From: Oryzicola mucosus
GTDB taxonomy: Bacteria; Pseudomonadota; Alphaproteobacteria; Rhizobiales; Rhizobiaceae
Length of the DNA: 64,000 nucleotides
Assembly (NCBI RefSeq): GCF_014534685.1
Contig: NZ_JACVVX010000004.1
Location: 186,001 to 250,000, forward strand
Direction: 5' to 3'
Shown: one piece after another, positions 7,136-34,036 of the stretch
Layout: each line of letters opens with the position of its first letter
Numbering within the stretch: position 1 is the first letter of the stretch
Translations under genes and position numbers: made by a program
Notes under the pieces: generated by a model
The model's database searches: none
What the model was told of the DNA's origin: nothing
What the model saw: only the letters and a program-made list of their open reading frames with translations

Positions 7136-7527
7136 GCAGTTCCTCCCTGGTTCGTCGCGGGGTTGGCTGTCAGGCCGGACGCAATGACGATATGCTGGCA
7201 CACACCATCAATATCCCTGAGCACGTCATCGTTCCAGAACCGCTGAACGGTCCAGCCGGCGGAACGGAGGAAAGTGTCACGCACCGCGTCGTATTCGGCC
7301 TGAGTTGCTTCTCCATGCTGAGAACCGTCGACTTCGACGACCAAGCGCTTCGCCGAACAGGCGAAATCGACGATATAGGGTCCGATCGGCACTTGCCGCC
7401 TGAAGGAGAGCCCCATCAGCCTGTGCGCCCGAAGCTCGTTCCAAAGCTTCAACTCAGCTTCGGTCATCACCTTGCGCATCGATTTGGCATTTTTGCGTTG
7501 GCGTGGAGCGACGATGTCATGCGGCAT
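7132..7527 (-). CDS. DUF559 (Vsr-like PD-(D/E)XK fold) putative endonuclease, locus 1
   Basis: A 131-residue protein of the DUF559 family, related to very-short-patch-repair endonucleases. The N-terminal RKVMTEAELKLWNELR segment is followed by the strand RRQVPIGPYIVDFAC, whose Asp is a candidate metal ligand, and then VVEVDGSQH with a probable catalytic E-x-D. Family members are predicted nucleases of unknown function. It heads an operon of genes overlapping by four bases each (GFA, GFA, pip). Immediately upstream is a perfect 46-bp inverted repeat. A second DUF559 gene at 31816, 40 percent or more similar by eye, also sits in intergenic repeats. Confidence 0.85.
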   Translation of the reverse strand: MPHDIVAPRQRKNAKSMRKVMTEAELKLWNELRAHRLMGLSFRRQVPIGPYIVDFACSAKRLVVEVDGSQHGEATQAEYDAVRDTFLRSAGWTVQRFWNDDVLRDIDGVCQHIVIASGLTANPATNQGGTA

Positions 7528-29384: not shown

Positions 29385-29510
29385 CGCTGCAAACCCCGGG
29401 ACCGAAATGAATCATGCGCCGCAATAACTTGCAGCGCATGTCATAGATAGCCACGAAACTGCCGTAACAAAAGGCCGAAGCGGGCTTACACGCGCCGCCC
29501 GCTCGGAAAC

Positions 29511-29619
29511 GCGTCAGGGCGTGACGAAAATGGCGGTTTCGAGAACCGGAGCGGAGCGTACTTTCAGGTACGTGAGCACCGGAAGCGCAGAAACCGCCAT
29601 GTGCAGGCCGCCCTCACGC
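29511..29619. repeat. Long imperfect hairpin between rpoZ and rel
   Basis: Nested arms are visible: GCGTCAGGGCG with CGCCCTCACGC (29511-29521 and 29609-29619, one mismatch), ATGGCGGTTTC with GAAACCGCCAT (29530-29540 and 29590-29600, perfect), and CGTAC/GTACG at the tip. It occupies the 245-base gap between the leftward genes rpoZ and rel. It could attenuate or process the transcript, or be a dispersed repeat; hairpins with a similar GTAC tip occur in rhizobial intergenic regions to my recollection. Confidence 0.7.
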
Positions 29620-29629
29620 TGTTTCCAAG

Positions 29630-31561: not shown

Positions 31562-31654
31562 GGCTCCGTTTCTCGTTCAGGATGGCAAAGCGCCTCATTC
31601 TGCCTGGCCCCGCGCCTTCGTCATTCTCGGGTGCAGCCGAGCGCAGCGAAGGCG

Positions 31655-31700
31655 ATAAGGAACGCCCCCTTCTCCCCTTGCGGGAGTGAAGAGCGGTCGG
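31655..31700. repeat. Family B palindromic repeat fragment
   Basis: The core GCCCCCTTCTCCCCTTGCGG is followed by GTGAAGAGCGGTCGG. The same composite recurs at 32204-32240 and 32566-32600. It lies just downstream of the UDGb gene. Confidence 0.75.
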
Positions 31701-31759
31701 AGCCCTGGCGGTAGTGCCTCGTCAGCGCCGACGCCCCCTTCTCCCCTTGCGGGAGAAGG
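31701..31759 (+). repeat. Family B direct repeat, left copy flanking the DUF559 gene
   Basis: It begins AGCCCTGGCGGTAGTGC and ends in a CTTCTCCC...GGGAGAAGG palindrome. It matches 32174-32227 with only a handful of mismatches over about 50 bases, in the same orientation, 473 bases apart. Confidence 0.85.
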
Positions 31760-31815
31760 AAGAGGCGCGGGTTTCAGCCTCTTTTCTTCTGAAAACGCGG
31801 CGGTAAAATCCTGCC

Positions 31816-32187
31816 ATGCCGCATCAGCCTGTTCCGCCCGAAAAGCGCCGGTTCGCCAAAACGCTTCGGCGCGACATGACCGAAGCCGAGGAGCGGCTGT
31901 GGCAGGAATTGCGCGGGCGGCGGCTGAACGGCATCAAGGTGCGGCGGCAGGTTCCGGTCGGGCGATACGTCGCCGATTTTCTTTGTGCGGAGGCGATGCT
32001 GATCATCGAGATCGACGGCTCCCAGCACGCGATGTCCGATCACGACCGCCGACGTTCCGCCGACCTGCAAGCCCAAGGCTTTCGCGTGTTGCGGTTCTGG
32101 AACCACGAGGTGCTGCGGGAGATGAACTCGGTCTGCGATACCATCGTCGCCTTTACACGCGACCGAACTTTGCAGCCCTGGCGGTAG
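31816..32187 (+). CDS. DUF559 (Vsr-like PD-(D/E)XK fold) putative endonuclease, locus 2
   Basis: A 123-residue DUF559 protein with [17 protein letters not shown], then [15 protein letters not shown] with the candidate metal-binding Asp, then IIEIDGSQH with the E-x-D, then [14 protein letters not shown]. It is a clear paralogue of the gene at 7132; both start MPH. It is bracketed by two direct copies of a family B repeat, and its last codons (Pro-Trp-Arg-stop) are contributed by the right-hand copy. The equivalent bases in the left copy are non-coding. It is a predicted nuclease of unknown target. It sits between a uracil glycosylase gene and smpB, a place otherwise filled by core genes. Confidence 0.85.
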
Positions 32188-32262
32188 TGCGCCGTCAGCG
32201 CCGACGCCTCCTTCTCCCCTTGCAGGGTGAAGAGCGGTCAGCGAAGCTGATCGATCGACGAG
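32174..32262 (+). repeat. Family B direct repeat, right copy, encoding the DUF559 C-terminus
   Basis: It opens AGCCCTGGCGGTAGTGC, with the DUF559 stop codon TAG inside it (32185-32187). After the palindrome core comes GAAGAGCGGTCAGCGAAGC, which recurs in diverged form at 32585-32604. Confidence 0.85.
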
Positions 32263-32282
32263 ATACACCTGCGAAGGCAGAA

Positions 32283-32531
32283 AGGAGCGCCCCCCTTCTC
32301 CCCTTGCGGGAGAAGGTGTCGCCCTTGAGCGAACGCAGAGAGCGAAAGACAGGCGACGGATGAGGGGTGTTGGACGAAGTGAGAGGCTGGAGAGTACGCA
32401 CGCCGATGCACCGAGCTTCCCCTTCCTGCACCGCCTCGTTTCTTCCAGCACCCCTCATCCGCCCCTTCGGGGCACCTTCTCCCGCAAGGGGAGAAGGGGG
32501 CGTCGGCGCTGACGACGCACTACCGCCATGA
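32283..32531. repeat. Family B inverted-repeat element (about 220 bp, nested palindromes)
   Basis: The outer arm at 32289-32318 (CCCCCTTCTCCCCTTGCGGG core, then AGAAGGTG) is inverted at 32473-32502. Inside, GGATGAGGGGTG (from 32359) pairs with CACCCCTCATCC (32449-32460). The right edge runs into an inverted copy of the CTGGCGGTAGTGC direct repeat (32503-32530). The layout of inverted ends around a non-coding core is MITE-like. Confidence 0.75.
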
Positions 32532-32559
32532 CTTTGAATTCCGGTGGCGAGCATGTAAC

Positions 32560-32890
32560 GCCATCCCTTCTCCCCCTGCGGGGTGAAGAGCGGTCGGCGA
32601 AGCCGATCAATCGACAACGATTTGTCGATTGAAGCGATGAACGCCCGGAGCCCAAGCGGAGGGCCGGGGGTGGCCGAGCCGAGCGCAGCGAAAGCGAGGT
32701 CGGATGAGGGGTGATGGACGGAGTGAGAGGCTGCGTATTGCGCGCCAATGCACGAGCTTCCCGGTCCTCCATCGCCTCGTTTCTTCCAGCACCCCTCATC
32801 CGCCCCTTCGGGGCACCTTCTCCCGCAAGGGGAGAAGGGGGCGTCGATGCCGGCGCTATCTCCCCTTGGTGGGGGAGAGTGAAGAGCGGG
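32560..32890. repeat. Second, diverged family B inverted-repeat element
   Basis: Its right part (32753-32848) closely matches 32412-32507 of the previous element, and its GGATGAGGGGTG segment (from 32702) again faces CACCCCTCATCC (32790-32801). The left core is CCTTCTCCCCCTGCGGGGTG. Together with the neighbouring copies it makes about 1.2 kb of repeat mosaic with no convincing gene other than the DUF559 frame. Confidence 0.75.
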
Positions 32891-32972
32891 CGCTGAAATC
32901 GCCCACGGTTTATCCACACTCTCCACCCCCGCCATACACTCCCACCGCCTTGAACGACGAAAGGAGGCGGCG

Positions 32973-33734
32973 ATGGATTGGGCAGGGGCGATCGACAAGC
33001 ATCAGGCAGCGCTCAAGCGGCTGCTCGCTTTGCTCGTCGCCATGGCCGGCATGACGGTTGCGGCTGGCGAAAGCCACCATACGGCCGGCACGGATGTTGG
33101 CCAAAACACTCTGCCGCGCCATCTGCATCGCGCCATTCTCCGGCTGCTGCGTCCCGCCGAGGCGGCGGCACGACGGCTGATCATTCTTGCCGCGCGCGGC
33201 ATGATTGTGCCACCGCCGCGCCCGCGTCTTGGAACTTCGCAGCAACACTCCGCCTTCCTGCGCGCGCCCGGCGGCACCGGCATCGTGATGCCGAAAGGTG
33301 CCATCCCGCTCCGCCCCGCGCCTCAGTCCATGGCCCTTCCGCTGCTCGATCCGCTGCGCCTGCCCCGGCAAAAGCCGTCGCGGTCGGCTATCGTGCCCCG
33401 TATTCGCGGCTTCGGCTTCGGCTTCGAGGCGTCCTCGCTTATCCCGGCCCGACCCGCCCCGCTGCCAGACGATCCGCTCGATGCCGACCGCCTGCGGCTC
33501 AGGCTGGCAGCGCTTGGCCGCGCGCTCGACGATCTGCCGCGCCAGGCCCGGCGCTTCGTGCGCTGGCGTCAGCGGCCGCGGCGCGGCGCGTTTCATCGCC
33601 TGTCGCCGCTGCGCGGCGGGCCGCCGCCGGGCTTGCGGTCGCCCGGCTCGCGCCACGCCCGTGAGGTCGACCGCACTCTGGACGATCTGCACGGGCTGGC
33701 GCTGTGGACGCTGGAGCACCCCGACAGCTCATGA
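32973..33734 (+). CDS. Basic hypothetical protein, 253 aa
   Basis: A strong ribosome site (AAAGGAGGCGG) precedes the ATG. The product is Arg/Pro-rich. A hydrophobic N-terminal stretch (LKRLLALLVAMAGMTVA) is followed by LPRHLHRAILRLLRPAEAAARRLIILAARG, which I recall as the conserved part of an uncharacterised alphaproteobacterial protein. Next come a variable middle and a helical C-terminal half rich in DRLRLRLAALGRALDDL. Another frame is also open over this stretch, as expected at this GC content, but lacks a ribosome site. No function can be assigned. Confidence 0.7.
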   Translation: MDWAGAIDKHQAALKRLLALLVAMAGMTVAAGESHHTAGTDVGQNTLPRHLHRAILRLLRPAEAAARRLIILAARGMIVPPPRPRLGTSQQHSAFLRAPGGTGIVMPKGAIPLRPAPQSMALPLLDPLRLPRQKPSRSAIVPRIRGFGFGFEASSLIPARPAPLPDDPLDADRLRLRLAALGRALDDLPRQARRFVRWRQRPRRGAFHRLSPLRGGPPPGLRSPGSRHAREVDRTLDDLHGLALWTLEHPDSS

Positions 33735-34036
33735 CCTACAAGTCTTGCGACAGAACAGCTTTGTCCGCTGCCGCGCAGCCACGCCTGCGCGCGCCAAAAC
33801 CGTTGGCCGATTGCGCGCGGTCCGACTATTTTTTCAGCAGCGTTTTTGGGGCGGTGGACAAAGCCGGCCGGCACCGATCAGTCGGTTCGGGGACGCCACT
33901 TGGCTCCCCGCCCCGCGCCGACCGCCCTCATTCCGAGGTGCGAGCCCGCAGGACACCGAAAACCGAAGCCAAATCCTCGAAGGGCGAGCCTCGAAGGACG
34001 CACCCAGCCGTTAAAGTTGACAGCTGTCAACTCGTA
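33735..34036. other. Non-coding stretch
   Basis: It separates the convergent hypothetical gene and the small TonB-like gene. I see no clear terminator, RNA or repeat in it. Confidence 0.5.

Follow-up and report, generated by a model that had tools for sequence, protein, structure and literature searches.

DUF559 genes and their matching CTCCC hairpins suggest a mobile gene-and-repeat partnership built on a Vsr-fold nuclease

Here, we report that DUF559 genes are associated with CTCCC-type hairpin repeats, that the type of hairpin matches the type of DUF559 protein both beside the gene (in cis) and genome-wide, that the active-site residues of the protein are conserved, and that a segment containing the gene is present in one genome and absent in its congener. 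Taken together, this suggests that DUF559 genes and their matching hairpins are an unrecognised mobile gene-and-repeat partnership, which resembles the RAYT/REPIN systems and is built on an unrelated nuclease.

The DUF559 locus in the window

The locus lies in a 64,000-nucleotide stretch of the Oryzicola mucosus genome (the whole of which we call the window), where an earlier note, made from the sequence alone, had described a DUF559 gene flanked by two same-orientation repeat copies, with the stop codon of the gene inside the right copy. Both copies of this repeat (family B) were found, at 31701-31753 and 32174-32226, as 53-nt stretches on the same strand with 92% identity and a spacing of 473 bp, and the TAG at 32185-32187 does fall within the right one. 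With at most 3 mismatches allowed, the 34-mer core of family B occurs 3 times in the window, the third time inverted at 32499-32532, vs 0 in 100 shuffles, and the ORF at 31816-32187 matches DUF559 (Pfam PF04480) with 133.9 bits against a gathering cut-off of 20.6. The features of the locus and of its surroundings are as follows.

31816..32187, + strand: DUF559 nuclease gene, 123 aa, C-terminus QPWR-stop, Pfam match
31737..31759, + strand: left outer hairpin HP1 (CCTTCTCCCCTTGCGGGAGAAGG), perfect 9-bp stem, 5-nt loop
31760..31783, + strand: left inner stem-loop HP2 (AAGAGGC...GCCTCTT), between HP1 and the gene, read by eye
32189..32207, no strand given: right inner stem-loop HP2' (GCGCCGTCAGCGCCGACGC, imperfect; consensus GTAGTGCGTCGTCAGCGCCGACGCC), read by eye
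about 32207..32232, + strand: right outer hairpin HP1' (CTCCTTCTCCCCTTGCAGGGTGAAG, imperfect), from repeat comparison, read by eye
31701..31735, + strand: left family B copy, with last codons and HP2', 18 nt of gene-tail homology
32499..32533, - strand: inverted family B copy, gene-tail homology of just 14 nt
32291..32500, no strand given: gene-free inverted repeat pair, HP1 at 32294-32316 and inverted HP1 at 32475-32497
32701..32838, no strand given: second, incomplete repeat pair, inner motifs near 32701 and 32790, HP1 at 32816-32838 on the - strand

In the predicted DNA fold, HP1 (31737-31759) is formed (z -2.56), and HP2 (31760-31783) is absent from the minimum-energy structure; an HP2-like sequence is present in the two other Corticibacterium copies. 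At the right end, the predicted fold is no better than shuffles (z -0.32). A second DUF559 copy in the same genome is 94% identical over window positions 31726-32232, with the common stretch stopping at HP1'. The gene-free pair at 32291-32500, which carries CGGATGAGGGGTG near 32357 (the inner motif) and CACCCCTCATCCG near 32449 in its interior, is one of 14 such pairs that were aligned in this genome.

The proposal that the repeat supplies the stop codon of the gene is rejected on two grounds. The terminal PWR-stop is kept in all nine aligned Mesorhizobium-like relatives (9/9), whose downstream sequence differs, hence the final codons belong to the gene itself and do not come from the repeat. 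In addition, eight non-genic family B copies in the examined stretches of the own genome, including the left one, contain 14-85 nt of gene-tail homology (two of the eight carry 14 nt only, which is weak), and two of these copies, on contigs C1 and C24, start at one and the same gene position, window 32114. From this gene-tail homology, family B appears to be largely the right end of a DUF559 element, and the left copy is probably a remnant of the right (3') end of another such element. At 36/81 loci, the stop codon is located within the first hairpin downstream or past it, a count which does not show that the gene would be open without the hairpin.

Other features of the window were also recorded. 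A second DUF559 gene, of another type, lies at 7186-7503 on the - strand, with ATCTCCCCC hairpins upstream only, and is found at the same place in the congener (G001). Another dispersed repeat, at about 29496-29628, has matches of about 73-96% at many places in both genomes, and the bases at about 31620-31654 resemble a CGTC-type REP that is broken off where the DUF559 segment starts and is apparently intact in the congener. Positions 32565-34008 form a module, about 1.4 kb long and present in multiple copies, whose 253-codon ORF (32973-33734) has no match in Pfam, NCBIfam or PHROGs; more copies are located at C12:321058, C1:491032, C24:64226 and C24:127239, as well as in the congener, and those that were mapped adjoin hairpin repeats.

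Hairpins at DUF559 genes and turnover of the sites

We define a CTCCC-type hairpin as a perfect stem of at least 8 bp with a loop of 3-8 nt and CTCCC in the 5' arm. The definition was settled once the first 34 loci, all included in the 72 below, had been looked at, and it was not altered for later sets. Among 61 genomes of relatives, 34 hold a total of 74 DUF559 matches, 72 of which were analysed. Such a hairpin was found within 300 bp of the domain match in 65/72 loci vs 10/285 at positions shifted by 3-5 kb, the 65 loci having it upstream in 55, downstream in 47 and on both sides in 37. The density of CTCCC-type hairpins is 4.7 per kb within 150 bp of DUF559 and 0.03-0.10 per kb past 1 kb, and that of other hairpins is flat (0.26-0.47 per kb). 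In longer stretches, where the control consisted of mechanical ORFs and not of annotated genes, hairpins accompany 40/47 DUF559 genes vs 13/280 other ORFs in the relatives, 27/39 vs 12/191 in the class set, and 69/73 vs 44/266 at the named loci. The earlier note had named a lack of enrichment of the repeats at DUF559 genes as refuting its reading, and these counts did not refute it.

The association extends to more distant hosts. A class-wide draw of 69 loci among the matches listed, two of which belong to the own order, gave 50/69 loci with a hairpin, composed of 22/29 (no shift control) and 28/40 (shift control 10/224). Elsewhere in the phylum, among 14 loci labelled as same phylum only (those of the own class or closer being left out), the count was 13/14, with no shift control, and for the named loci it was 75/80 vs 16/430 in the shifted control. 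These locus sets are not independent, as some named loci repeat genomes of the relatives set (e.g. L195, G001 C56). Hairpin-less DUF559 genes, which the earlier note held would count against its reading, do exist, as a minority: 7/72 in the relatives, where 65/72 carry hairpins, 7/29 and 12/40 in the two parts of the class-wide draw, 1/14 in the phylum set and 5/80 among the named loci. One DUF559 gene is at the same place in both congeners (G000:C12:228917, the own genome, and G001:C56:167304), with hairpins in neither, and is perhaps domesticated.

On three Deinococcus plasmids, the DUF559 gene is embedded in a paa or hpa cluster, and 2/3 show inverted perfect hairpins. The D. psychrotolerans gene is placed between paaD and paaZ and its ends are inverted; of the two plasmids with hpa clusters, one has inverted perfect hairpins and the other a perfect hairpin upstream only. 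Hairpins also occur at one Desulfuromonadales locus and at 1/2 Nitrospira loci. DUF559 matches were found in 44 of 72,556 plasmid records and in 3 of 50,697 phage records, and a phage gene is rejected on the latter count. Among the six plasmid and two phage records that were inspected, a Synechocystis record has one hairpin and in a Pseudanabaena record none was found. Two unverified metagenomic phage scaffolds (L289, L290) contain DUF559-like genes with CTCCCC hairpins nearby, and one 3.4-Mb genome (G072) has ten DUF559 matches, with CTCCC hairpins within 300 bp at 7/7 of those inspected.

How are the hairpins arranged? The earlier note had described a unit bracketed by direct repeats, and a direct-repeat transposon is rejected as the general form: among the 54 loci that are comparable on both sides, the two nearest hairpins have an inverted orientation at 43 and a direct one at 10, with 1 tie, some of the 43 being inverted by one base only and 22 exactly. 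Of 37 named loci, 22 are inverted, 7 direct, 1 tied and 7 not comparable. Terminal inverted repeats of the insertion-sequence kind are therefore present at 43/54 and 22/37 loci, and not at the window locus itself, where the nearest perfect hairpins are direct; some relatives also have direct ones, and 4/9 comparable loci of the series L195-L213 do so. An arm-like motif that follows the hairpin toward the gene is only partly general, being found inward at 164 of 306 ends, outward at 46 and in shuffled inward sequence at 88.

Similar ends are found without a gene. The own genome has 38 sites of a 22-mer (at most 2 mismatches), which give 14 convergent neighbours within 250 bp and 1 of another arrangement, with 29/38 sites in pairs. 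The 14 aligned gene-free pairs have in common the hairpin and the motif GGATGAGGGG, the interior being variable, and this inverted layout is the same as that of REPINs.

Comparison with the congener shows turnover of these sites. In G001, 61 bp stand in place of window positions 31655-32564, with the repeats kept alongside. A second site, between two genes that look by eye like branched-chain amino-acid transporter genes, consists of a hairpin, a D-type DUF559 gene and a hairpin in the own genome, and in G001 just one hairpin is present there; this state is explained equally well by G001 having lost the gene through recombination of the two hairpins and by gain in the own genome. The transporter site has matches in 50/61 genomes, many of them partial, and 11 were examined, G031 being not informative: the two genes abut in 9/11, so something inserted on the way to this genus, and G626 has a 375-bp insert with no hairpins. 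Extra bases without known origin lie outside both hairpins at this site, and inspection of the transporter and paa sites by eye revealed no target-site duplication. Elsewhere, G001 has an A-type gene where the own genome has a repeat pair (L035/L085) and an E-type gene where the own genome has an A-type one (L094/L089), and two DUF559 loci are conserved between the two genomes, one without hairpins. Gene-free sites thus exist, one of them with a single hairpin copy (the transporter site in G001), and these sites, together with the unrefuted enrichment, agree with the earlier suggestion that gene and repeat behave as one unit.

The match between hairpin type and DUF559 type

We distinguish five hairpin arm types, A-E, of our own definition (CCTTCTCCC, ATCTCCCCC, CTCTCCC, CCTCCCC and TCTCCCCC), with ten loci of mixed hairpin types assigned to the commonest one. 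On the DUF559 protein tree, which is built on 108 columns and has many weak forks, hairpin type changes 12 times over 62 labelled rows, vs 26.5 on average, and never fewer than 18, when types are shuffled within genomes (0/2000). When the hairpin-less rows of the same tree form a class of their own (treekit), there are 18 changes vs 41.2 in the shuffle (0/200).

The match also holds away from the gene, as the resident DUF559 type predicts the genome-wide hairpin class. Over the 61 genomes, there are 1645 TCTCCC palindromes vs 26 of the reversed pattern, and 840 CCTCCC palindromes vs 125. Together they number a median of 48.5 per genome in the 34 genomes with DUF559 vs 3 in the 27 without, kinship being ignored. 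The pooled share of CCTCCC is 85% in the six genomes with D-type genes only and 20% in the seventeen with other types only (rank test on per-genome fractions, p 4e-4, kinship ignored), the 85% leaning on two genomes, G046 and G058, which give 238 of the 284. There are exceptions: 8/27 genomes without a DUF559 match hold at least 10 hairpins, up to 101, and in G035 CCTCCC hairpins outnumber TCTCCC ones despite the lack of a D-type gene. Two genomes without a DUF559 match, G041 and G012, contain 101 and 71 CTCCC-type hairpins, respectively, and may have lost the gene or use a different enzyme. G058 is a good model case: it has one DUF559 match and 88 CCTCCC hairpins, and many of the listed ones have loop variants similar to those of the hairpins beside the gene.

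A nuclease acting on hairpins of its own type is the simplest cause of a protein-repeat match that is seen both beside the gene and genome-wide. We therefore favour, as a reasonably probable reading, that the gene and its hairpin ends are a mobile element whose encoded nuclease recognises hairpins of its own type; recognition, cleavage and mobilisation are what we infer here. The window element would measure about 0.5 kb (31737-32232), with the DUF559 gene and a hairpin at each end, and each end would comprise an outer hairpin with CTCCC...GGGAG arms and often, on its gene-proximal side, a short spacer or a second stem-loop together with the arm-like motif. The Vsr-fold nuclease would recognise hairpins of its own type and would nick or cut those that are single-stranded or extruded, as may happen in replication; subsequent repair or copying would spread the ends. 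Such a process could yield whole-element copies, gene-free inverted pairs and truncated ends. RAYTs are likewise thought to act on REPs.

One option is that the gene is carried along passively, with another enzyme spreading the repeats and ordinary inter-repeat recombination copying or deleting DUF559 genes, the nuclease being uninvolved. This would fit the occurrence of repeats both with and without the gene, the truncated ends, the hairpin-rich genomes without DUF559 and the single hairpin at the transporter site, which is what recombination between two palindromes would leave, and the accessible text of PMC12308824 reports Legionella segments with a transposase and DUF559 as recombination hotspots. 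We consider this option unlikely, as it does not readily explain why hairpin type tracks the DUF559 protein across and within genomes, nor why the class and number of hairpins genome-wide track the resident DUF559 type.

The DUF559 protein, related systems and significance

In light of a nuclease that may act on hairpins, what kind of protein is it? The predicted model (mean pLDDT 86) indicates a Vsr-like fold, and a common fold does not show function. The closest structure is PDB 3hrl (NGO0050), a solved structure and by title a putative endonuclease-like protein (Z 17.2, 48% identity), and Vsr itself (1cw0) is matched with Z 11.9 over 102 residues at an rmsd of 2.2. Residues E25, D54, E65, D67 and H71 are conserved in at least 98% of 225 proteins. 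The dN/dS of the window gene is 0.29 against the second own-genome copy and 0.10 against the congener copy; pairs other than the two own-genome copies, seven in all, range from 0.06 to 0.14, four of these seven having more than 1 synonymous change per site. No HUH/Y1 tyrosine transposase was matched by the window protein (Pfam, E up to 1), the other match, MTES_1575, being below its cut-off. A defence gene is rejected, with a weak sole PADLOC match (DpdF, E 0.0014), as is an RNA family, with no Rfam match at the gathering score; the weak Rfam matches are mostly to microRNA precursors and probably reflect the hairpins.

The earlier note regarded DUF559 proteins as having no accepted function, which no longer wholly applies: in the accessible part of a 2026 report, the Caulobacter DUF559 protein VsrA is needed for the SOS response of cells without the cytosine methyltransferase ScmA, and VSP repair is proposed for it (PMC12907096). 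This functional tie to a methyltransferase (PMC12907096), the Vsr-like fold (Z 11.9) and the closeness of hairpins to the gene ends would all agree with DUF559 being a Vsr-like mismatch or DNA-repair nuclease, with the hairpins as its vertically inherited regulatory or terminator elements. We regard this as quite improbable, since multi-copy genes, presence in one congener with absence from the other, and the occurrence of different DUF559 types at a single site are unlike a vertically kept repair gene, the gene-free pairs are dispersed, and the Vsr model (NCBIfam TIGR00632) reaches 18.7 bits, far under its cut-off of 97.85. A homing-type element, whose nuclease would cut gene-less hairpin sites for gene conversion to copy the gene in via hairpin homology (gene-free pairs spreading otherwise), is suggested by I-Bth0305I being the best fold match after 3hrl (profile match E 0.004; Z 12.9 over 93 residues) and by the one hairpin in G001 where the own genome has hairpin-gene-hairpin, and is very unlikely because homing alone explains neither the inverted gene-free pairs nor insertion between genes which in relatives are directly adjacent and have no hairpin between them.

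Our preferred reading, a mobile element with a nuclease that would act on its own type of hairpin, has its nearest parallel in the RAYT/REP/REPIN systems, whose enzymes are IS200/IS605-like HUH tyrosine transposases. As described in the available text of PMC3116915 and PMC3733652, these comprise one small gene flanked by palindromic repeats, dispersed repeats that are often inverted doublets, and repeat flavours that match gene types. DUF559 genes are likewise flanked by genome-dispersed palindromic repeats, with inverted doublets too. The difference is that the DUF559 enzyme has a Vsr nuclease fold and matches no Y1 transposase, and that its repeats have CTCCC arms. Alphaproteobacterial CGTC REPs, according to the portion of PMC3733652 that is available, are also palindromic, are often inverted dimers, occur partly in the same hosts and are reported without a dedicated transposase, whereas their stems almost always have A-T in the first two positions, which the main CTCCC types do not. 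Membership in either REP class is rejected, the GTAG tag being near 1/431 hairpins and the CGTC tag near 16/431.

We also draw a distinction between DUF559 and the Vsr endonucleases. These have the fold in common with our protein, as Caulobacter VsrA has the DUF559 domain, whereas Vsr genes are described as usually linked to cytosine methyltransferase genes (PMC12907096), and the accessible sections of that paper mention no hairpin partnership. I-Bth0305I, whose entry is named a mobile intron protein, likewise has a fold in common with the DUF559 protein. In one open-access library, among titles and the available text of PMC12907096, PMC12308824 and PMC7251935, our search found no report of hairpin repeats at DUF559/COG2852/PF04480 genes.

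More broadly, and tentatively, DUF559 proteins could be the cognate mobilising nucleases of a large unnamed super-family of CTCCC hairpins that extends from Pseudomonadota to Deinococcota. This would constitute a minimal transposon class together with a REPIN-like system, with a Vsr-fold nuclease as its sole enzyme in place of an HUH, DDE, serine or tyrosine recombinase. On this basis, each DUF559 type is predicted to act on its own hairpin type.

Hairpin repeats of the CTCCC kind are dispersed in alphaproteobacterial genomes. If DUF559 proteins move or maintain them, a widespread family of uncertain role would gain a function, one class of orphan repeats would gain an enzyme, and the Vsr fold would join the DNA-mobilising enzymes. 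It would be relevant, too, to the interpretation of Caulobacter VsrA as a VSP-repair protein.
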